Assembly: GCA_947502635.1 (NCBI GenBank)
Contig: CANNAN010000001.1
Coordinates: forward strand, 620,001 to 684,000
Length of the DNA stretch: 64,000 bases
Source of the DNA: an uncultured Flavobacteriaceae bacterium
GTDB taxonomy: Bacteria > Bacteroidota > Bacteroidia > Flavobacteriales > Flavobacteriaceae
Direction of reading: 5' to 3'
Below, piece by piece: positions 23,132-31,520 of the stretch; within the stretch, counting starts at the first letter, position 1, and the number at the start of each line of letters is the position of its first letter. The position numbers were made by a program, and so were the translations under genes. The notes beneath the pieces are model-generated. The model had not been told where the DNA came from and ran no database searches. It saw only the letters and a program-made list of their open reading frames with translations.

Positions 23132-23710
23132 TTGACTGAGCAAAATTTTATCGATGATTTAAATGCAGGAAAACAATCCGCTTACAGTAAGTTGATTGAT
23201 GACTTTCAGGATAAAGTATTTGCTACTTGTATCTCATTTGTGCCCAATAAGGAAGATGCTGAAGATATTGCTCAGGATGTTTTTGTAGAGGTTTTTAATT
23301 CTATTCATAAATTTAAAGGAAATTCTAAGTTATCAACCTGGATATATCGTATTGCAACTAATAAGTGTTTAGAATTTATAAGAAAAAAGAATACTAAAAA
23401 ACGTTTTGCTTTTTTACAATCTATAATGGGTAATGACATTCCGATGGATAAAAGTAAATATTTTACAGAGATGAATCATCCAGGGATTATTTTAGAGAAT
23501 AAGGAAAAAAGTGAAACTTTATTTCTTGCCATTAATCAGTTGTCCGAAGAGCAGAGAACAGTATTTACGCTTAGTAAGATAGATGGTATGAGTAATAAAG
23601 AGATAGGAGAAATTATTAAGAAAAGTGTGTCTTCGGTAGAATCTTTAATGTTTAGGGCGAAGAAAAATTTACGAGAATTATTAGAGAATTTTTATAAAAA
23701 TGAAAACTAG
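23132..23710 (+). CDS. RNA polymerase ECF sigma factor
   Basis: 192-residue group 4 sigma factor. Region 2 is about 20-90 (PNKEDAEDIAQDVFVEVFNSIHKFKGNSKLSTWIYRIATNKCLEF) and region 4 about 125-185 (SKIDGMSNKEIGEIIKKSVSSVES). It starts at TTG 23132; an in-frame stop lies four codons upstream and no ATG is available. The next two genes, a small membrane protein and a Spy/CnrX-like protein, complete an ECF / anti-sigma / sensor cassette. The ECF-type motif is not upstream of this gene but at 23713, immediately after its stop, ahead of the anti-sigma candidate. The sigma factor would thus raise expression of its own inhibitor. Confidence 0.93.
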   Translation: MTEQNFIDDLNAGKQSAYSKLIDDFQDKVFATCISFVPNKEDAEDIAQDVFVEVFNSIHKFKGNSKLSTWIYRIATNKCLEFIRKKNTKKRFAFLQSIMGNDIPMDKSKYFTEMNHPGIILENKEKSETLFLAINQLSEEQRTVFTLSKIDGMSNKEIGEIIKKSVSSVESLMFRAKKNLRELLENFYKNEN

Positions 23711-23712
23711 CG

Positions 23713-23739
23713 CAAGTTTTTAAAAGTTATGGCATCTAA
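23713..23739 (+). promoter_or_regulatory. ECF-type promoter A (CAAG-N16-CATCTAA)
   Basis: CAAG at 23713, 16-base spacer, CATCTAA at 23733. It is 11 bp upstream of the anti-sigma candidate start. It shares both boxes and the spacing with 24680 and 26566. The -10-like CATCTA is close to the CGTCTA of classical ECF promoters. Confidence 0.7.
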
Positions 23740-23750
23740 CAATATACAAA

Positions 23751-24062
23751 ATGGAAACGAATAGAAATATAAAAAATAAGATTGAAGATACTTTGAATGC
23801 CATGGATGCTATTCAGGAAGTAAAAGTATCGCCTTTTTTTAAAGATAAAGCTATGCAAAGATTGTTTGCAGAAAAAGAGGAAGCACCATTAATCAGGTCT
23901 TGGTTTTCTCCTAAGCTACAATTGGCAACTTTGGTCTGCTTTGTTGTTTTAAATGTTTTAGCATTTACACAACTAAACTCTAATGAATATGATAATAATA
24001 TTAACGAGTTTGCAGAAACATATGGTTTGTCTTCAGGTTCTGATGCCTCATTGTTTAATTAA
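23751..24062 (+). CDS. Small single-TM protein, anti-sigma factor candidate
   Basis: 103 residues. The N-terminal half is cytoplasmic (METNRNIKNKIEDTLNAMDAIQEV), with VSPFFKDKAMQRLF near 26-39. One TM helix lies near 55-72 (LATLVCFVVLNVLAFTQL) and a 30-residue periplasmic tail follows. Size and topology match CnrY-type anti-sigma proteins that hold an ECF factor at the membrane. It is between the sigma gene and a Spy/CnrX-like gene, and has its own ECF-type promoter at 23713. The anti-sigma role is inferred from position and topology only. Confidence 0.75.
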   Translation: METNRNIKNKIEDTLNAMDAIQEVKVSPFFKDKAMQRLFAEKEEAPLIRSWFSPKLQLATLVCFVVLNVLAFTQLNSNEYDNNINEFAETYGLSSGSDASLFN

Positions 24063-24072
24063 ATAAAGCATT

Positions 24073-24588
24073 ATGAAAAAAAACATACTCTTATATGTCT
24101 TATTACTGTTTTTAATAGTAGTTAATGGCTTTTTTCTATTTAATTATTTAGGAGGTTCTAATGATACAAAAAACAAGGATAGACCCCAAGGAAAAGGGCC
24201 TGCGAGTTTTATTGTTAAAGAATTGGACTTTAGTGATGACCAAATGTTTCAATTTGAAGACTTAAGTAGAGAACACCATCATGAAATGAGACGTATTGGT
24301 AGAGATATTAAAGTATTAAAAGATGCTTTGTTTAATAAATTAGCGGACGTTTCATTAAATGAAAATTCAATAGACTCTATTACGACCCTAATAGGTGAAA
24401 GAGTAAAAGAAAGAGATATAGAAGCTTTCTATCATTTCAAGGATATTCAAAAATTATGCAATGCTCAACAAAAAGAAAAGTTTAAAAGCATAATTAATGA
24501 TGCACTTCACAAAGCAGGTAGAAAAGAACAAAGACCACATTTAAGAAATGGTGAAGGGGAACATAGACCGCCGCCGCCAAGGCATTAA
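24073..24588 (+). CDS. Spy/CnrX-like periplasmic metal-sensor protein
   Basis: 171 residues. An N-terminal membrane anchor (ILLYVLLLFLIVVNGFFLFNYL) is followed by a periplasmic helical domain. LDFSDDQMFQFEDLSREHHHEMRRI is the LTxxQ-like heavy-metal-resistance pattern of Spy, CpxP and CnrX; REHHHEM could bind a metal. The C-terminus is rich in His, Arg and Pro (EGEHRPPPPRH). The start is 10 bp after the small TM protein, in the same transcript from promoter 23713. The order ECF-TM protein-CnrX-like equals the Cnr metal-sensing unit of Cupriavidus. Metal sensing is inferred. Confidence 0.75.
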   Translation: MKKNILLYVLLLFLIVVNGFFLFNYLGGSNDTKNKDRPQGKGPASFIVKELDFSDDQMFQFEDLSREHHHEMRRIGRDIKVLKDALFNKLADVSLNENSIDSITTLIGERVKERDIEAFYHFKDIQKLCNAQQKEKFKSIINDALHKAGRKEQRPHLRNGEGEHRPPPPRH

Positions 24589-24608
24589 TAAATCTTAATT
24601 TATATACT

Positions 24609-24639
24609 AAAGGCTTTCATGAAAATGAAAGCTTTTTTT
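24609..24639 (+). terminator. Terminator of the anti-sigma/sensor unit
   Basis: GCTTTCAT pairs perfectly with ATGAAAGC around a GAAA tetraloop (24613-24632), followed by seven T. It separates promoter A's transcript from promoter B. Confidence 0.8.
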
Positions 24640-24679
24640 GTGCAAATCATAAATATTTCTTAAAAAGCAGATTGCCTCA

Positions 24680-24706
24680 CAAGTTTTTTTAATTCATGAC
24701 ATCTAA
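24680..24706 (+). promoter_or_regulatory. ECF-type promoter B (CAAG-N16-CATCTAA)
   Basis: CAAG at 24680, 16-base spacer, CATCTAA at 24700, 27 bp upstream of the EF-hand gene. Same motif and spacing as at 23713 and 26566. Confidence 0.7.
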
Positions 24707-24733
24707 AATATTAAACATAAAAATATTATAGAT

Positions 24734-25030
24734 ATGAAACTAAATAGATTAAAAACAGCAGTGTTATTTTTTGGAACGGTATTATTTATTTCTTCCAGTT
24801 TGTTTGGACAAAATAAGCACCAAAATCCCGAAAAGCCTCCAACAATAGAAAAATTATTTAAAGATCTTGATGGAAATGAGGATGGTAAACTTTCAAAGAA
24901 AGAAATTAAAGGACCATTAAAAGATCATTTTGATGAAATAGATACAAATGAAGATGGTTTTTTGACAAAGGAAGAATTAGAAAAAGCACCTAAACCAAAA
25001 GAAAGAAAACCCCAGAAAGAAATGAACTAA
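24734..25030 (+). CDS. Exported EF-hand protein
   Basis: 98 residues with a signal peptide (VLFFGTVLFISSSLFG) and two EF-hands: DLDGNEDGKLSKKE (about 45-58) and DTNEDGFLTKEE (about 70-82), each with the Asp/Asn-x-Asp-Gly calcium-type loop. The C-terminus is Lys/Glu/Pro-rich. It is first in the transcript from ECF-type promoter B and followed by the CotH-like gene 16 bp later. A periplasmic divalent-metal (Ca or similar) ligand is expected. No Pro at loop position 2 is seen, so a lanthanide role as in lanmodulin is not indicated. Confidence 0.85.
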   Translation: MKLNRLKTAVLFFGTVLFISSSLFGQNKHQNPEKPPTIEKLFKDLDGNEDGKLSKKEIKGPLKDHFDEIDTNEDGFLTKEELEKAPKPKERKPQKEMN

Positions 25031-25046
25031 TCTAAAATTAAATATT

Positions 25047-26471
25047 ATGAAAAATAAAAATAGTAAAATATATATTAAAGCCATTTTGTTAATAATTACT
25101 GTTGTATTTCTTGTTGCTTGTAATAGTAATGATGATACGACTGATGTTTTAGAAGAGACCAATGAAGTCATAGTTGATGATACCGAGTTTGTTGCGACAG
25201 ATTGGACAACAGAAACACATACAAAAGATGTAGATCCAAATTTTGATGAAGTATTTGAGGACAATACAGTAAAAAGATTAGATATTGTAATTACAGCGGC
25301 ACGTTGGCAAAGTATGTTAGATGATATGACGGCATCTTATGGTGTTTTTGGTTCTGGAGGTGGACCAGGAGGTGGATTAATTGACTCGGATGATAACCCT
25401 ATTTTTGTGCCGGCAGAAGTTTTTTATGATGGAATAGAATGGTATCGTGTGGGGGTTCGGTTTAAAGGAAATTCCAGCTTGCAATCAAGTTGGAGAAATG
25501 GTATTTTAAAATTGTCTTTTAAATTAGATTTTGATGAATTTGAAGACGACTATCCACAAATAGATAATCAACGTTTTTATGGGTTTAAAAAGTTAAGTCT
25601 TAAAAATAACTATGATGATAAATCCATGTTAAGAGAAAAAGTTGCTGGCGATGTATTTAGAAATGCTGGGTTAGTAGGTTCTCATACTGCTTTTTATACG
25701 CTTTATGTAGATCATGGTGACGGACCTGTTTATTTTGGTTTGTATACTATGGTTGAGGAGGTTGACGATACTGTTTTAGATACACAGTTTTCTGATGATG
25801 ATGGTAATTTATATAAACCAGATGGCGATGCTGCTAGTTTTGCTGAGGGCTCTTTTGATGAAGATGAATATGTAAAGAAAACGAATGAAGATGATGCTGA
25901 TTTTTCTGATGTTCAAAGCCTGCTTAGTATTTTACACGATGATACCAGAATAACAGACGTCGCAGCTTGGAGAGCAAATTTAGAAACTGTTTTTGATACA
26001 GATGTGTTTTTAAAATATTTGGCAGTTAATACAGTCATTCAAAATTGGGATACTTATGGAAAGATGACACATAATTATTTTTTATATAATAATCCTGATA
26101 CAAATAAATTAACATGGATTCCATGGGATAATAACGAAGCACTTCAAGATGGAAAACAAGGCGGCTCGTTATCTTTAGATTTTTCAGGATTAAATGCATC
26201 AAATTGGCCATTAATAGGGTATTTATATAATGACGAAGTATATAAAGCAAAATATGAAACTTATGTTCAGGAAGTTGTAGACGGATCATTTAATACAGGT
26301 ACAATATCTGCATTATATACAACTTATTCTTCTTTAATAGAGCCCTATGCAACTTCTGAAGTTTCAGGTTATAGCTTTTTAAATTCTAGTGGCGATTTTA
26401 TAACAGCGGTAAATCAGTTAAAAAGTCATGTTTCAGAAAGAGCATCGGCAGTGAATAATTATTTAGATTGA
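25047..26471 (+). CDS. CotH-family kinase-like lipoprotein
   Basis: 474 residues with a lipoprotein signal (VVFLVACNSNDD, Cys about 25). The CotH fold signs are VRFKGNSSLQSSWRNGILKLSFKLDF, where the Arg-Lys-Gly-Asn-Ser patch marks the family, KLSLKNNYDDKSMLREKVAGDVF, and the distal WIPWDNNEA. In Bacillus, CotH phosphorylates spore-coat proteins; in Bacteroidetes the target is unknown. It is in the transcript from ECF-type promoter B and ends at a hairpin at 26511. A loop of Gly-Gly (GSGGGPGGG) is present near residue 105. Confidence 0.85.
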   Translation: MKNKNSKIYIKAILLIITVVFLVACNSNDDTTDVLEETNEVIVDDTEFVATDWTTETHTKDVDPNFDEVFEDNTVKRLDIVITAARWQSMLDDMTASYGVFGSGGGPGGGLIDSDDNPIFVPAEVFYDGIEWYRVGVRFKGNSSLQSSWRNGILKLSFKLDFDEFEDDYPQIDNQRFYGFKKLSLKNNYDDKSMLREKVAGDVFRNAGLVGSHTAFYTLYVDHGDGPVYFGLYTMVEEVDDTVLDTQFSDDDGNLYKPDGDAASFAEGSFDEDEYVKKTNEDDADFSDVQSLLSILHDDTRITDVAAWRANLETVFDTDVFLKYLAVNTVIQNWDTYGKMTHNYFLYNNPDTNKLTWIPWDNNEALQDGKQGGSLSLDFSGLNASNWPLIGYLYNDEVYKAKYETYVQEVVDGSFNTGTISALYTTYSSLIEPYATSEVSGYSFLNSSGDFITAVNQLKSHVSERASAVNNYLD

Positions 26472-26510
26472 AAGTTATATTATAAGAATTTTAATCTGAT
26501 TAGCTTTTTT

Positions 26511-26543
26511 AAGCTCCATGATTGTACATTATGGAGCTTTTTT
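26511..26543 (+). terminator. Terminator of the EF-hand/CotH unit
   Basis: AAGCTCCAT pairs with ATGGAGCTT around an 11-nt loop, followed by T residues. It separates promoter B's transcript from promoter C. Confidence 0.8.
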
Positions 26544-26565
26544 GAAAAAAAAATGAAATTTCGCG

Positions 26566-26592
26566 CAAGGTTTTTAAATGTAACGCATCTAA
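26566..26592 (+). promoter_or_regulatory. ECF-type promoter C (CAAG-N16-CATCTAA)
   Basis: CAAG at 26566, 16-base spacer, CATCTAA at 26586, 25 bp upstream of the small membrane peptide at 26618. Also preceded by a GCG as at promoter A. Confidence 0.7.
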
Positions 26593-26617
26593 AAAAGCAA
26601 ACCTTCAAATAAAACAA

Positions 26618-26713
26618 ATGAAAATTAAGAGAGCGGCTTTAGTAATTAGTATTTCATTTTTAGTGATTTCTTTATTGATGTTAAACCTGTTGGTTATTTT
26701 TTCATCATATTAA
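26618..26713 (+). CDS. Single-TM peptide, 31 residues
   Basis: Found by hand: ATG 26618 to TAA 26711, beginning MKIKRAALVISISFLVISL and ending IFSSY. It is one positively charged N-terminus plus one hydrophobic helix. It is the first reading frame after ECF-type promoter C and sits 12 bp before the YHYH gene. The position makes translation plausible, but no homologue is recognised and it could be a leader or spurious. Confidence 0.45.
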   Translation: MKIKRAALVISISFLVISLLMLNLLVIFSSY

Positions 26714-26725
26714 AAAAACAGACTT

Positions 26726-27499
26726 ATGAAAAATTTAAAAATTCTATTAATTCTACCTTTATTAACGACTGTTATTTTTATAGCATGTTCTAATGGGGAT
26801 GATTCAGTAATCATAGAAGAAGAAAATGAACAATCTGTAGATACAGATTATGATATAAGTGCTATTCTTTCAAAATTTGAAGGAACGGGATTATCTTATG
26901 AAGTCAATGGAAACACCGTTATATTTACAACGCAGGATTTACCAAATCACACAAGTCCGTATTGGCCAACTAACAATCCATTATACGCCGCTTATAATGG
27001 TACAAATTCTAATTGGAATATAAATCCGAATACCATTAGCGAGCAAAATATAGTTTTTACAATGTCATTAAACCCAGCTGAGGCTTCAAATAAGCAAGCG
27101 ACAGGTTTGGGCCCCATTGGTATTTCAAGAAATGGAGTGGTGTTTTTTAATCAGTATGCAGGTCCAGATCAACCATTAACCAATGAAATTAATTCGTTTG
27201 ATCAATGGTTGGGGCATCCACAACGCACAGGACAATACCATTATCATATAGAGCCAACCTATTTAACACAACAATTTGGAGATGATGCCTTTTTAGGGCT
27301 TTTGGCTGACGGTTTTCCTGTTTATGGACCTGTTGAAAATGGAGAAACGATTACTAATGGAGATTTAGATGATTATCACGGACATACATCTGCTACAGTA
27401 GATTTCCCCGATGGTATTTATCATTATCATATTACAAGTGAAGACCCATACCTTAACGGGAGCGGTTATTTTGGAACCCCTGGGAATATCTCTAACTAA
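26726..27499 (+). CDS. YHYH-domain lipoprotein
   Basis: 257 residues with a lipoprotein signal (FIACSNGDD, Cys about 21). The family hallmark YHYHIEPTYL occurs near 175, followed by LLADGFPVYGPVENG, then DYHGHTSAT and IYHYHIT. The repeated His-x-His and Tyr-His pairs are likely metal ligands. YHYH proteins are of unknown function and often near metal or redox genes. It is in the promoter C transcript; the next gene starts at the base after its stop codon. Confidence 0.85.
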   Translation: MKNLKILLILPLLTTVIFIACSNGDDSVIIEEENEQSVDTDYDISAILSKFEGTGLSYEVNGNTVIFTTQDLPNHTSPYWPTNNPLYAAYNGTNSNWNINPNTISEQNIVFTMSLNPAEASNKQATGLGPIGISRNGVVFFNQYAGPDQPLTNEINSFDQWLGHPQRTGQYHYHIEPTYLTQQFGDDAFLGLLADGFPVYGPVENGETITNGDLDDYHGHTSATVDFPDGIYHYHITSEDPYLNGSGYFGTPGNISN

Positions 27500-28066
27500 G
27501 TGCTTAGACATTTAAAATATATAATATTATGTATGATTGTATTTCATTCCTGCAAGCCAGAAATGAAGTATGAGATTGTTGATACTAATAAGCATTTGGA
27601 ATTAGTAAACGGGATTATGTTTTTAAACAAAGTTCCATTAACAGGACATATAGTGTCTTATTATGAAACCCATAAGGTGAAGTCTGATATTCAATATACT
27701 CAAGGGAAAAAACATGGTTATGAGAAGCATTGGTATGAAGATGGATCAAAGAAAATAGAACGCTATTATTTTGAAGGTTTTAAAACAGCGCTTCATAAAG
27801 GATGGTGGCGAGATGGTAAACTGAAGTTTGAATATTCTTTTAATAAGAAAGGGGAGTACAACGGTATGGTGAAGGAGTGGTATAAAACTGGACAATTATT
27901 TAGAGATTTTAATTATGTAAAAGGAAAAGAGGTTGGCCGCCAGCGTCTTTGGAAAATAGATGGGACTATTAAAGCTAATTACGAAGTGGTTGATGGAGAA
28001 CGATTTGGCTTAATAGGTTTAAAAAAGTGTTATACGGTAACAACAAATAGCGACGAAATAAAATGA
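27500..28066 (+). CDS. MORN-repeat (YwqK-like) lipoprotein
   Basis: 188 residues from GTG 27500, immediately after the YHYH stop. Lipoprotein signal (IVFHSCKPE, Cys about 18). It has about four MORN-type repeats of the form GKKHGYEKHWYEDGSKK, GWWRDGKLKFEYSFNKKGEYNGMVKEWYKTGQLF and GKEVGRQRLWKIDGTIK, spread over about 60-160. YwqK-family proteins of this type are common outer-membrane lipoproteins in Bacteroidetes. The C-terminus overlaps the SCO1 start by 4 bp, so the two are coupled. Function unknown. Confidence 0.8.
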   Translation: MLRHLKYIILCMIVFHSCKPEMKYEIVDTNKHLELVNGIMFLNKVPLTGHIVSYYETHKVKSDIQYTQGKKHGYEKHWYEDGSKKIERYYFEGFKTALHKGWWRDGKLKFEYSFNKKGEYNGMVKEWYKTGQLFRDFNYVKGKEVGRQRLWKIDGTIKANYEVVDGERFGLIGLKKCYTVTTNSDEIK

Positions 28067-28686
28067 AATATTCTATTTTAATAGTATTAGTTTTCATCAT
28101 TGCATCTTGTAAAAAGAAGCAAAGTAATGATGTGGCTAAGCTACCTTATTTTAATAGTACAGATTTCACACCAGAATGGGATAAAGCGATGCATAAAATT
28201 CCAGAGTTTTCCTTTACTAATCAAAACGGAGAGGTAGTTACTAATAAAACTTATAAGGATAAGATTTATATTGCTGATTTCTTTTTTACCAGCTGTCCTG
28301 GTATTTGCCCAAAACTCACTAAAAATATGGGAAGTCTTCAGGAAACATACAAAAATGATATCGATATTATGTTGCTATCTCATACAGTAATGCCTTGGAA
28401 AGATTCGGTGTCTGTTTTAAAAGGTTATGCTCAAAAAAATCATGTAAATGTTGCAAAATGGCATTTAGTGACTGGTGATAGAGATGCATTATATGGCATT
28501 GCAAGAACAGGTTATTTTGCTGATGAAGATTTTATAAAAACACAAGATGAAAGTGATTTTATTCATACCGAAAACTTTATTTTAATAGATAAACAAGGTT
28601 ATATACGCGGTGTTTATAATGGTACTTTAGAAATTGATATCGAACGATTAAAGAGACATATTACTATTTTAAAAAGAGAGGGATAA
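28063..28686 (+). CDS. SCO1/SenC-family copper-binding lipoprotein
   Basis: 207 residues, lipoprotein signal (FIIASCKKK, Cys about 16). The thioredoxin-like domain holds the metal/redox motif FFFTSCPGICPK (CxxxC at about 77-81) and the distal conserved His in DFIHTEN. SCO proteins deliver copper to cytochrome oxidase or act as periplasmic thiol oxidoreductases. The start overlaps the MORN gene (ATGA) and a terminator follows at 28712. Its place in the ECF block together with EF-hand and YHYH proteins points to a metal-linked response. Confidence 0.92.
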   Translation: MKYSILIVLVFIIASCKKKQSNDVAKLPYFNSTDFTPEWDKAMHKIPEFSFTNQNGEVVTNKTYKDKIYIADFFFTSCPGICPKLTKNMGSLQETYKNDIDIMLLSHTVMPWKDSVSVLKGYAQKNHVNVAKWHLVTGDRDALYGIARTGYFADEDFIKTQDESDFIHTENFILIDKQGYIRGVYNGTLEIDIERLKRHITILKREG

Positions 28687-28711
28687 ATTTTTAATTAATA
28701 GTTTTATTGCA

Positions 28712-28740
28712 AAGCTTCGTGATACTTCACGGAGCTTTTT
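28712..28740 (+). terminator. Terminator of the YHYH/SCO1 unit
   Basis: An 11-bp stem with one G-U pair (28712-28722 with 28727-28737), 4-nt loop, followed by a T run. Confidence 0.8.
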
Positions 28741-28765
28741 TTATTTTTATAGAAATTCAGGTTTT

Positions 28766-29836
28766 ATGAAAAAAGTATTTTTACTATTAATAGCCATGGT
28801 TGTTCTTTTTGGGTTTAAAGAAAGTCATTTATTTAAGTCCCGAAAAATTAATAGTGTCGAAATTAATACGATTATAAAAGATTCGCTATTAAATGTAAGA
28901 GCTTTAGAGATTATTGAAAGCACTAATTTCTTTGTTTTTTTAACTTCCAATGGAAATATGGGGGTCGTATCGATAGAGGAAAGTACAAAAACCGATAAAA
29001 ATATAACATATCCGATTAAGGTTAAGAGTGATTCGATTGTGCCCAATTTTAGGGCTTTAGCAGGAAATAGTAAACATGGATACGGTTTAAGCACTGGGTC
29101 GCCTGCCTTATTATATAAATTGGATATAGGGAAAGATACTATTGTATATCAGGAGAATCACCCCAAAGCTTTTTACGATTCTATGGATTTTTGGAATGAT
29201 CAGGAAGGGATCGCTATTGGAGATCCTACTAATGATTGCATAAGTGTTATTATTACTCGTGATGGAGGAGAGACATGGAAGAAATTACCATGTGATTCTT
29301 TACCCAAAGCAAAAGAAGGGGAAGCTGCTTTTGCAGCGAGCGATACTAATATTGCTATTGTTGGTGACCATACCTGGGTGGCTACAGGAGGGAAGTCTAG
29401 TAGAATTTTATATTCCCCAAATAAAGGGGAAACATGGGAAGTTTATAATACACCAATAGTCCAAGGTTTAGAAACAACAGGGATGTATTCTATTGATTTT
29501 TATGATGAACTTAATGGTTTTGCTATTGGTGGCGATTATACAAAACCAGATGATAATGCTGCTAACAAAATTAAAACAATTGATGGTGGTAAAACTTGGG
29601 ATTTAGTTGCTCAAAATGAAAACCCAGGTTATAGAAGTTGCGTACAATATATACCAAATAGAGCAGGGAAGGAGCTAATTGCTATTGGGTTTAAAGGTAT
29701 TGATTATAGCAATGATTCTGGAAATTCATGGAAACACCTTAGTGACGAAGGTTTCTATACAATTCGATTTTTAAATGATTCGATTGCTTATGCTGCAGGT
29801 GCTGGGCGTATATCTAAGTTGATTTTTAGAGAATGA
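28766..29836 (+). CDS. Ycf48-like beta-propeller (oxidoreductase) protein, exported
   Basis: 356 residues with a signal-anchor N-terminus (FLLLIAMVVLFGF). It contains several BNR/Asp-box turns with the GGETWKKL, NKGETWEVY, DGGKTWDLV and DSGNSWKHL pattern, spaced 60-70 residues, typical of Ycf48-type propellers and of Bacteroidetes proteins annotated oxidoreductase. Ycf48 assists photosystem II assembly in cyanobacteria; here the role is unknown, possibly a periplasmic stability factor. It comes after the ECF block terminator, and no ECF-type motif was seen before it, so it is probably not in the regulon. It converges on the second ECF cassette. Confidence 0.8.
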   Translation: MKKVFLLLIAMVVLFGFKESHLFKSRKINSVEINTIIKDSLLNVRALEIIESTNFFVFLTSNGNMGVVSIEESTKTDKNITYPIKVKSDSIVPNFRALAGNSKHGYGLSTGSPALLYKLDIGKDTIVYQENHPKAFYDSMDFWNDQEGIAIGDPTNDCISVIITRDGGETWKKLPCDSLPKAKEGEAAFAASDTNIAIVGDHTWVATGGKSSRILYSPNKGETWEVYNTPIVQGLETTGMYSIDFYDELNGFAIGGDYTKPDDNAANKIKTIDGGKTWDLVAQNENPGYRSCVQYIPNRAGKELIAIGFKGIDYSNDSGNSWKHLSDEGFYTIRFLNDSIAYAAGAGRISKLIFRE

Positions 29837-29982: not shown

Positions 29983-30432
29983 TTAACCCTTATTACCGCC
30001 TTTTTTGTGTTTGTTTTTAAAACGTTCTAACATTTTTCTTTTAAAATCATCCTCGGCTATTTTTAATAAAATTATTTTTTTAGGAGGAATGATTTGCAAT
30101 AATTTAGCAGACAATTCCATACGTTGTTTATGAAGTGCATTTTCTGCTTCATTTAATTTTGTAATTAAATCTTTGGCTCTTTTATCTGTTAGTGTGCTAA
30201 TATTTCTTCTAATTTCTCGACGAATATTTCTAATATCTTCATGTCTTATTTTAGAAGTCACCTTATCATAATCATTATAAACAGGCCAGAATTTTTGAGC
30301 TTCTTGCTCAGTTAAATCTAATTTCTCTGTAATAAATGAAACTTTGATTGCTTTTATTCTCTCTCTATTGTGTTGTGCCGTAATATTTAGCGAAAACAAA
30401 AATAGTAATATGGGAAGTATGTTTTTTTTCAT
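29983..30432 (-). CDS. Spy-like 'sensor of ECF-type sigma factor'
   Basis: 149 residues with a signal peptide (ILPILLFLFSLNITAQ). Then about 120 residues of charged helix: KAIKVSFITEKLDLTEQEAQKFWPVYNDY, with the LTEQEAQKFW motif of the Spy/CpxP-like family widely annotated as ECF-type sigma-factor sensor in flavobacteria. The C-terminus is Lys-rich. It is third in the minus-strand order sigma, membrane protein, Spy-like, 11 bp after its neighbour. The cassette is parallel in plan to that at 23132 but unrelated in the details of the membrane protein. Confidence 0.8.
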   Translation of the reverse strand: MKKNILPILLFLFSLNITAQHNRERIKAIKVSFITEKLDLTEQEAQKFWPVYNDYDKVTSKIRHEDIRNIRREIRRNISTLTDKRAKDLITKLNEAENALHKQRMELSAKLLQIIPPKKIILLKIAEDDFKRKMLERFKNKHKKGGNKG

Positions 30433-30443
30433 GAGTTTGTACT

Positions 30444-30941
30444 TTATTCAAGAGTGATATCTTCAATGTCTAAATTATCTAATATATAGGTCTCCATAGT
30501 TCTTTCTTCAACGTTATATTCTATAAAGTTTTCTTCAATCAAATCGTCATCAGATAATAAGGTTGCAATTTCATAAGAACCAATATTTTCATTAATTATA
30601 TAGTTTTCAACGGTTTCAAAATCTAAAGAATCAAAAGTTAATTTGTTTTCAAAAATCGAAAGGTTGAATAAAATTAAGACAGCAGCAGCTATACTTGACA
30701 TATAAATGACTGTTCTTTTTCTAAATAGAGGAATTACTTTTGTTGGTGTACTTGTTGAAATTTTATCTGTAATACTATCTTCTAAAGTATTAAAATAGTC
30801 TTCAGGTAATTTAAAACCAGAATCACCTGATATTTTTTTAAGCTTTATATCACTTATAATACGATCTTCTAAAGAGTTAAAATAATCATCTGGAACTTTA
30901 AATCCAGTTTCTTTAATGTTATGTAGTTTATTCTGTTTCAT
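30444..30941 (-). CDS. Single-TM protein with tandem 'GFK-P-DYFN-LEDxI' repeats, anti-sigma candidate
   Basis: 165 residues. The N-terminal cytoplasmic part carries a direct repeat of about 30 residues: GFKVPDDYFNSLEDRI (about 12-27) and GFKLPEDYFNTLEDSI (about 42-57). One TM helix follows near 72-92 (VIYMSSIAAAVLILFNLSIF), then an acidic periplasmic tail. The position, 36 bp after the sigma gene and 11 bp before the Spy-like gene, suggests an anti-sigma factor. Bacteroidetes anti-sigma-like proteins with a PxxYF motif are known to me, but the doubled motif is noteworthy. Confidence 0.72.
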   Translation of the reverse strand: MKQNKLHNIKETGFKVPDDYFNSLEDRIISDIKLKKISGDSGFKLPEDYFNTLEDSITDKISTSTPTKVIPLFRKRTVIYMSSIAAAVLILFNLSIFENKLTFDSLDFETVENYIINENIGSYEIATLLSDDDLIEENFIEYNVEERTMETYILDNLDIEDITLE

Positions 30942-30977
30942 TATCTTATTAATAAGACTAGAGGTTTTAATAAAGGT

Positions 30978-31520
30978 TTAATCTTTAGTTAAATAAGCTT
31001 CGATTTTCTTAACAGCTATATGATAAGATGCTTTTAAAGCGCCTTCACTAGTTTCTAGTATATCTGCCATATCTTTATATTTTATGTCTTCAAAATATTT
31101 CATATTAAAAACAAGCTGCTGTTTCTCTGGTAAAGTTGCAATAGCGCGTTGTAATTTTAGTTGAATAGCATCCCCTTCAAAATAAACATCTGATGCTAAG
31201 TTGTTTATAGCCAATCGTTGCACTTCTTCACTTGTGACTCGTAGGCGTTTAGCATTTTTATTAATAAATGTAATCGATTCGTTGGTGGCGATGCGGTATA
31301 ACCATGAAAACAATTTACTATCCCCTTTAAAGTTATGAATGTTTTTATAAACCTTAATAAACGTGTTCTGAAGCACATCATCAGTATCATCATGCGATTT
31401 CACTATATTACGAATATGCCAATATAAACGCTCTTTGTAAAGCGTGATTAACGTTCTAAAAGCTTTATCCTTTTGGTTTTCTGACTTTAATAATTCTAAT
31501 AGTTGTGTTTCGTTGATCAC
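30978..31520 (-). CDS. RNA polymerase ECF sigma factor, second
   Basis: 180-residue group 4 sigma factor. Region 2: DDTDDVLQNTFIKVYKNIHNFKGDSKLFSWLYRIATNESITF (about 45-85). Region 4: EKQQLVFNMKYFEDIKYKDMADILETSEGALKASYHIAVKKIE (about 130-175). It heads the minus-strand order sigma / repeat membrane protein / Spy-like. A 6-bp palindrome (TAGTCT-TT-AGACTA, 31530-31543) lies 10 bp upstream. The CAAG-N16-CATCTAA motif of the first cassette was not found near it, so the two sigma factors probably read different promoters. Confidence 0.93.
   Translation of the reverse strand: MINETQLLELLKSENQKDKAFRTLITLYKERLYWHIRNIVKSHDDTDDVLQNTFIKVYKNIHNFKGDSKLFSWLYRIATNESITFINKNAKRLRVTSEEVQRLAINNLASDVYFEGDAIQLKLQRAIATLPEKQQLVFNMKYFEDIKYKDMADILETSEGALKASYHIAVKKIEAYLTKD

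Follow-up and report, generated by a model that had tools for sequence, protein, structure and literature searches.

A candidate regulon of one ECF sigma factor, marked by a conserved promoter-like motif, in marine Flavobacteriaceae

Among the described systems built around an extracytoplasmic function (ECF) sigma factor, CnrYXH/CnrCBA of Cupriavidus metallidurans joins the sigma factor to a short single-pass anti-sigma factor and a membrane-anchored periplasmic helical sensor, and the RpoE regulon has chaperones and proteases as targets. Control by ECF sigma factors in Bacteroidota is poorly understood, with few class I anti-sigma factors encoded nearby; the extract consulted of PMC7406223 gives only 6% of the ECF sigma factors of Bacteroidetes as associated with a class I anti-sigma domain (ASDI). 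A window of 64,000 nucleotides (the whole stretch of DNA analysed; contig CANNAN010000001.1, positions 620,001 to 684,000, of an uncultured Flavobacteriaceae bacterium) carries an ECF sigma gene followed by three copies of the motif CAAG-N16-CATCTAA. This locus most likely represents a small regulon, conserved across many marine Flavobacteriaceae, of a single ECF sigma factor that very probably reads the three promoters and raises its own inhibitor. Judged by sequence comparison, CnrYXH, RpoE-RseA and Spy/CpxP are the nearest kinds of system, and none of them matches the locus in both parts and targets; a description of this regulon was not found in open-licence PMC text. The locus yields a promoter sequence open to direct testing in numerous named marine species, together with a sigma factor and candidates for its inhibitor and sensor; it would also place in a regulatory setting the blocks of YHYH, EF-hand, CotH and SCO1 proteins, whose role is unclear.

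The locus resembles CnrYXH in its ECF sigma factor, its short single-pass anti-sigma candidate and its anchored periplasmic helical sensor candidate, and the sigma factors are related (CnrH, PDB 4cxf, 1.2e-9, found further down than the closest PDB relatives, SigW and RpoE). It differs in that the sigma gene comes first, similarity to CnrY was undetected, similarity to CnrX is weak, and the place of RND efflux among the targets is taken by EF-hand, CotH, YHYH and SCO1 proteins. Membership of the CnrYXH kind thus fails, at the level of sequence, on CnrY similarity and on efflux targets. No efflux family was recognised by Pfam in the genes of the window and ten further genes, nor among the clustered first genes of the motif sites, a scan that did not take in every downstream gene. 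With RpoE-RseA of E. coli and Neisseria the locus shares an RpoE-like sigma factor, the TCTAA of the -10 element as in Neisseria, and an A/T-rich stretch upstream of the -35 element. It departs from that system in the -35 element (CAAG, versus GGAACTT in E. coli and GTAAGGTT in Neisseria), in the lineage-specific regulon and in having no Pfam-recognised anti-sigma domain. The part of PMC2893595 consulted gives the meningococcal sigma-E -10 element as TCTAA and that of E. coli as TCAAA. A match to the whole sigma-E promoter was considered and rejected, since only the -10 element agrees.

In the window, the bare core CAAG-N16-CATCTAA has only three matches against 0.05 expected, and none of 100 shuffled sequences reached three. 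The exact N16 spacing of these sites, their gap of 11-27 bp to the start codons and the terminators ahead of two of them, all claimed in an earlier note on this DNA, are borne out (Table 1). Folding of the hairpins that precede sites 2 and 3 is far better than that of shuffled sequences, so that each site probably heads its own transcript; a simple terminator scanner leaves these plus-strand hairpins unlisted and lists the first inverted repeat on the minus strand only. A scan of the 5.44-Mb genome to which the window belongs found the strict form of the motif with its T-tract (CAAGNTTTTN11CATCTAA) three times, every one at the locus, and the reversed control not once. When up to two mismatches were allowed, 44 matches were obtained against 55 for the control, so that no weak distant sites can be claimed in this genome.

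A scan of the genome collection has revealed 372 stretches encoding relatives of the sigma factor, and the best 80, with orthologs at 71-95%, were compared as loci. In the gene-order comparison that the earlier note proposed, the block is syntenic in most of these loci, with SCO1 and YHYH recurring as a block. All 80 loci carry at least one exact core motif, with 261 copies on the strand of the sigma gene and none on the other. The spacing is fixed: N16 gives these 261 matches, while every other spacing from 10 to 23 gives 0-4 per strand. The extended consensus, built from 260 of the 261 sites (one lies too close to an end), reads C[A/G]CAAGTTTTT-N10-GCATCTAAA, and an A/T-rich tract lies about 13-20 bases ahead of CAAG in the same 260 sites. 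Ahead of the anti-sigma candidate gene the motif is exact in 73/80 loci and present as a one-base variant in the remaining 7/80. A first gene could be given to 237 of the 261 sites (24 received none), at a median distance of 27 bases from motif to start. The first genes encode the anti-sigma candidate (69 sites), the EF-hand protein (68), the YHYH protein (39) and CotH (13), and the sigma gene itself at 28, where it was caught as an internal frame of the sigma gene. Other first genes recognised by Pfam encode VTC, a di-haem cytochrome c peroxidase (two genomes), PAP2, Lcl_C, Cthe_2159 and another YHYH protein; DUF4956 follows VTC, and a sulfatase is found in some clusters.

On this comparison the motif behaves as a conserved promoter-like element and not a chance match. 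Conserved half-sites at a fixed distance can also be bound by a DNA-binding regulator encoded elsewhere, in which case the motif would not be a promoter element of this sigma factor. This reading is very unlikely. The two parts of the motif form neither an inverted nor a direct repeat, their orientation is always that of the sigma operon, the distance to the start codon is promoter-like, TCTAA is a -10 element of the sigma-E type, and the motif occurs where the ECF sigma factor does, as the following counts indicate.

A family sample of 149 genomes was searched for the sigma factor (E<=1e-40) and for relatives of the YHYH (E<=1e-20) and CotH (E<=1e-60) proteins. The strict motif is present in 18/149 genomes (39 sites; control, 7 sites in 7 genomes) and the sigma factor in 20/149, which include all 18 genomes with the strict motif (Fisher p 2.7e-21); none of the 129 genomes without the sigma factor has it. 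YHYH relatives occur in 33 genomes and CotH relatives in 14, so that 34 carry either; among these 34, the strict motif is found in 15/17 with the sigma factor and in 0/17 without it (p 7e-8). The motif therefore follows the sigma factor and not the targets, and 3/20 sigma genomes have neither a YHYH nor a CotH relative at the thresholds used. One of the two sigma genomes without the strict motif, G091, has four exact copies of the core in which the T-tract is broken; the other, G076, carries a paralog at 50-52% and no motif with at most one mismatch in its 8-kb stretch.

Within the genus of the window, two core sites separated by 1-2 kb on the same strand occur in all 12 genomes, with 70 core sites in total versus 33 for the control. 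Two of them, G152 and G153, carry a further cluster remote from the sigma gene (on another contig, and about 0.56 Mb away), composed of EF-hand-VTC-DUF4956-DUF2490-CotH and YHYH-MORN-SCO1, each part of which is preceded by the motif (the DUF2490 label was taken from L178, and the VTC and DUF4956 labels were given by likeness to L069). The regulon, which the earlier note had called self-contained, is so in the genome of the window and not in these relatives. In genome G036 the syntenic place keeps YHYH-MORN-SCO1 and lacks the sigma factor, the anti-sigma candidate, the sensor and any exact motif; a single match with one mismatch lies elsewhere in the stretch. The view that the motif travels with the target genes, and is linked to the sigma factor merely by shared ancestry of a block that is indeed syntenic in most loci, is hardly tenable in face of the 17 sigma-less genomes with YHYH or CotH relatives and no strict motif, the distant clusters that carry the motif where the sigma factor is present, and G036, where the sigma factor and the exact motif are missing together. 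Loci with and without a motif copy ahead of the sigma gene, the cassette-less G036 and the distant clusters make up an evolutionary series.

The clusters with VTC and DUF4956 recall an accessory set of CotH, polyphosphate polymerase and DUF4956 which, in the portion of PMC7112168 consulted, adjoins pel in Gram-positive bacteria. They differ from that set in the ECF motif at their head and in the absence of pel genes recognisable by eye in L178 and L179, and the window has only EF-hand and CotH.

The proposal of one sigma factor that reads three sites and raises its own inhibitor has held in the motif scan, in the gene order and in the co-occurrence of motif and sigma factor. Several observations weigh against the reading as a sigma regulon. 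The bare core occurs five times in the genome of the window (three at the locus, two elsewhere) and the control also five, so that away from the locus it is at chance level. Genome G120, with a sigma factor at 66%, has no motif with at most one mismatch before the anti-sigma gene and only one after SCO1, and in G072 (L144) one strict motif falls within an open frame. In a sample of 246 genomes from the order, where a close sigma ortholog was found in the window's own genome only and two others at 42-49%, stray strict motifs occur in 3/243 genomes without a sigma match, and control matches in 8/246. Organisms may recur between the 80 loci and the genome samples, all of which are related, so that the p values overstate independence and serve as a guide only. 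Finally, the roles given to the anti-sigma candidate and the sensor are read from position and weak profile matches.

In 31/80 loci a motif copy lies no more than 260 bp upstream of the sigma gene, and three more loci have one with one mismatch. In the tree, 29 of these 31 loci fall inside one supported clade of 38 rows (Algibacter, Hyunsoonleella, Lacinutrix, Psychroserpens, Winogradskyella and relatives); the label test gave 500/500 shuffles as low, rows outside the two groups being left uncounted, and no number of gains is claimed from it. The sigma gene of the window has no motif copy upstream, nor has any Flavivirga-named row among the 80 loci, and positive autoregulation through the motif therefore seems absent in Flavivirga. 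The nearest named orthologs of the sigma factor are those of Flavivirga (90-95%), which suggests that the host is a Flavivirga relative.

Table 1. Genes, promoter-like sites and terminators of the locus (positions in the window).
Feature	Position	Strand	Evidence or remark
ECF sigma factor (192 aa, start codon TTG), presumed to read the motif	23132..23710	+	Sigma70_r2 6.5e-17, r4_2 1.2e-15
Putative promoter 1, CAAGTTTTTAAAAGTTATGGCATCTAA	23713..23739	+	Precedes anti-sigma candidate; 11 bases from motif end to ATG
Anti-sigma candidate, 103 aa	23751..24062	+	Position and architecture
Spy/LTXXQ-like membrane-anchored periplasmic protein, presumed sensor	24073..24588	+	NCBIfam CpxP-family 3.4e-5, below cut-off
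Predicted terminator, hairpin and T-run, closing transcript A	24609..24640	+	RNA fold z -6.0
Putative promoter 2, CAAGTTTTTTTAATTCATGACATCTAA	24680..24706	+	Precedes EF-hand and CotH; 27 bases from motif end to ATG
EF-hand protein, exported, two EF-hands with canonical DxNxDG loops	24734..25030	+	EF-hand_5 2.4e-11
CotH kinase-like lipoprotein	25047..26471	+	Pfam CotH 9.6e-73
Predicted terminator, hairpin and T-run, closing transcript B	26511..26543	+	RNA fold z -4.4
Putative promoter 3, CAAGGTTTTTAAATGTAACGCATCTAA	26566..26592	+	25 bases from motif end to ATG
31-aa single-pass transmembrane peptide, Leu-Asn in helix	26618..26713	+	Resembles peptides after other motif sites
YHYH-domain lipoprotein	26726..27499	+	Pfam YHYH 7.6e-21
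MORN-repeat-like lipoprotein	27500..28066	+	MORN_2 1.3e-5, below cut-off
SCO1/SenC lipoprotein, CxxxC and His	28063..28686	+	Pfam 1.9e-25
Predicted terminator, closing transcript C after SCO1	28711..28748	+	RNA fold z -6.2; also listed by the simple scanner

The gene labels of the earlier note were checked against Pfam cut-offs, which the ECF sigma factor, EF-hand, CotH, YHYH and SCO1 proteins pass; the labels MORN_2 (25.3 versus 29.6 bits) and LTXXQ (15.2 versus 24.3 bits) fall below them, and the 103-aa and 31-aa products have no match in the Pfam scan. The sigma factor has the layout of an ECF protein, with region 2 at residues 21-87, region 4 at 132-180 and no sigma domain recognised by Pfam between them. 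The MORN gene usually sits between YHYH and SCO1 across the compared loci.

The anti-sigma candidate consists of an N-terminal part of about 50 residues, one transmembrane helix and a short C-terminal tail. In 27 aligned sequences F29, F30, W51, Q57 and N68 are invariant, and the conserved order is an invariant FF, a conserved WFxPxxQ segment, the transmembrane helix with the invariant Asn (N68) and the tail. An ASDI was not recognised in the Pfam and NCBIfam scans, a PDB profile search with the alignment gave no credible relative, and the comparison with CnrY by hhalign showed no similarity (0.2% probability), although homology of such short proteins can escape detection.

The presumed sensor belongs to a cluster with an open reading frame in 80/80 loci and is likely a distant relative of the Spy/CpxP (LTXXQ) family, as suggested by its profile match to Spy in the PDB (E 8e-4) and by the LTXXQ-like residues Q57 and Q133, conserved in 80/80. 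Unlike Spy/CpxP, it has an uncleaved-looking membrane anchor with an Asn (N18) in 80/80, a single Cys in 77/80 and a gene alongside that of a sigma factor, and it misses the LTXXQ gathering score. The match to CnrX by hhalign is weak (9.6% probability, P 0.0034) and colinear over 99 columns, and no CnrX-named chain is among the 13 matches at E<=1 in the PDB profile search; of the earlier label "Spy/CnrX-like", the first half is thus the better founded. A check for a CnrX-like metal site in the sensor alignment gave H68 in 79/80, M72 in 71/80 and C129 in 67/80. H69 is present in 53/80, so that H68 is the only near-invariant His, and the sensor lacks a conserved poly-His site in the 80 loci. Twelve of the 13 sequences without C129 have a Cys near residue 105.

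In the proposed mechanism the 103-aa membrane protein would hold the sigma factor, whose gene has no motif upstream here and is presumably expressed from another promoter in this genus, and the Spy-like periplasmic protein would act as sensor or co-inhibitor. An envelope signal would free the sigma factor from the 103-aa protein, and the freed sigma factor would read promoters of the consensus form, with the CAAG region as the -35 element and ATCTAA as the -10 element. Transcript A would then supply inhibitor and sensor, closing a negative feedback, and transcripts B (EF-hand, CotH) and C (31-aa peptide, YHYH, MORN, SCO1) would supply envelope proteins.

As to the signal, our guess is envelope stress, perhaps of copper or thiol-redox origin. 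The targets look metal-binding, given that the SCO1 copper ligands C78, C82 and H168 (CxxxC and a distal His) are kept in 57/57 aligned rows, window included, that the EF-hand loops are canonical (D46, D50, E57, D70, D74 and E81, each 98-100% in 45 aligned sequences), and that in 40 aligned YHYH proteins the first YHYH motif is invariant and the second at least 90% conserved; a PDB profile search with the YHYH alignment found no credible relative. The metal-linked response put forward in the earlier note is suggested by these targets, and only suggested, as the sensor is nearer to Spy and has one near-invariant His. The single sensor Cys together with H68 and M72 makes copper or thiol-redox sensing possible, and ordinary envelope stress is at least as likely.

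A switch of the RpoE/Spy type, responding to envelope or misfolded-protein stress and with metal-like targets that are incidental, is a serious contender that falls somewhat short of even chances. Among solved structures the sensor is nearest to the chaperone Spy, the sigma factor is RpoE/SigW-like, and by a crude rule 134/140 non-regulatory first-gene products have a lipobox or a hydrophobic N-terminus; however, the targets differ from the chaperones and proteases that RpoE regulons comprise, and SCO1 recurs with YHYH as a block. A metal switch of the CnrYXH type, in which the sensor would bind metal directly and the targets would give metal tolerance, is rather unlikely. It has in its favour the same three-part make-up, the colinearity of the CnrX match and an SCO1 protein that appears competent to bind copper, and against it the low CnrX and absent CnrY similarity, the lack of efflux families among the targets scanned, and a sensor in which H68 alone is near-invariant and the single Cys can move. 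More speculative still is a new class of ECF control, in which a short membrane anti-sigma factor outside class I and a Spy-fold sensor would pair through their invariant-Asn helices (N68 and N18), the sensor would read copper or thiol redox through C129 with H68 and M72, and the 31-aa peptide, also with an Asn in its helix, would act as a feedback modulator.

Similar single-pass peptides of 30-52 aa start within 70 bases after the motif at 15/261 sites, and the Leu-Asn in their helix recalls the invariant helix Asn of the anti-sigma candidate and the sensor. Ten first-gene products (L076 11462, L101 12232 and eight others) carry a canonical EF-hand loop as well as a YHYH motif. In the sigma-less L184 and L185, blocks of EF-hand, CotH, YHYH, MORN and SCO1 genes lie near a histidine kinase and LytTR pair, with only CotH in L186 (the labels come from Pfam for L184 only, and were given by eye for L185 and L186); an exchange of the regulator for the same target set is possible in L184-L186.

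A bare-core site elsewhere in the genome of the window (G000:C2:558676, L149) precedes a gene for a small CHGKC membrane protein, with a counterpart in G153 (L180). It may be a fourth target or a chance match and, since the core count of this genome equals that of the control, is kept as no more than a lead.

Downstream of SCO1 and its terminator lies a gene for a PSII_BNR (Ycf48-like) protein (28766-29836), also found in many loci and motif-free in the window. A second ECF sigma gene (30978-31520, minus strand, Pfam regions 2 and 4) belongs to a cluster at 29983-31520, where two genes follow it: the first encodes a product of 165 aa with one hydrophobic segment, the next an exported protein of 149 aa that is LTXXQ-like by eye, and neither product has a Pfam match. 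With flanks that end at 8 kb, 22/80 loci show an opposite-strand ECF gene 4-8 kb downstream of their first sigma gene.

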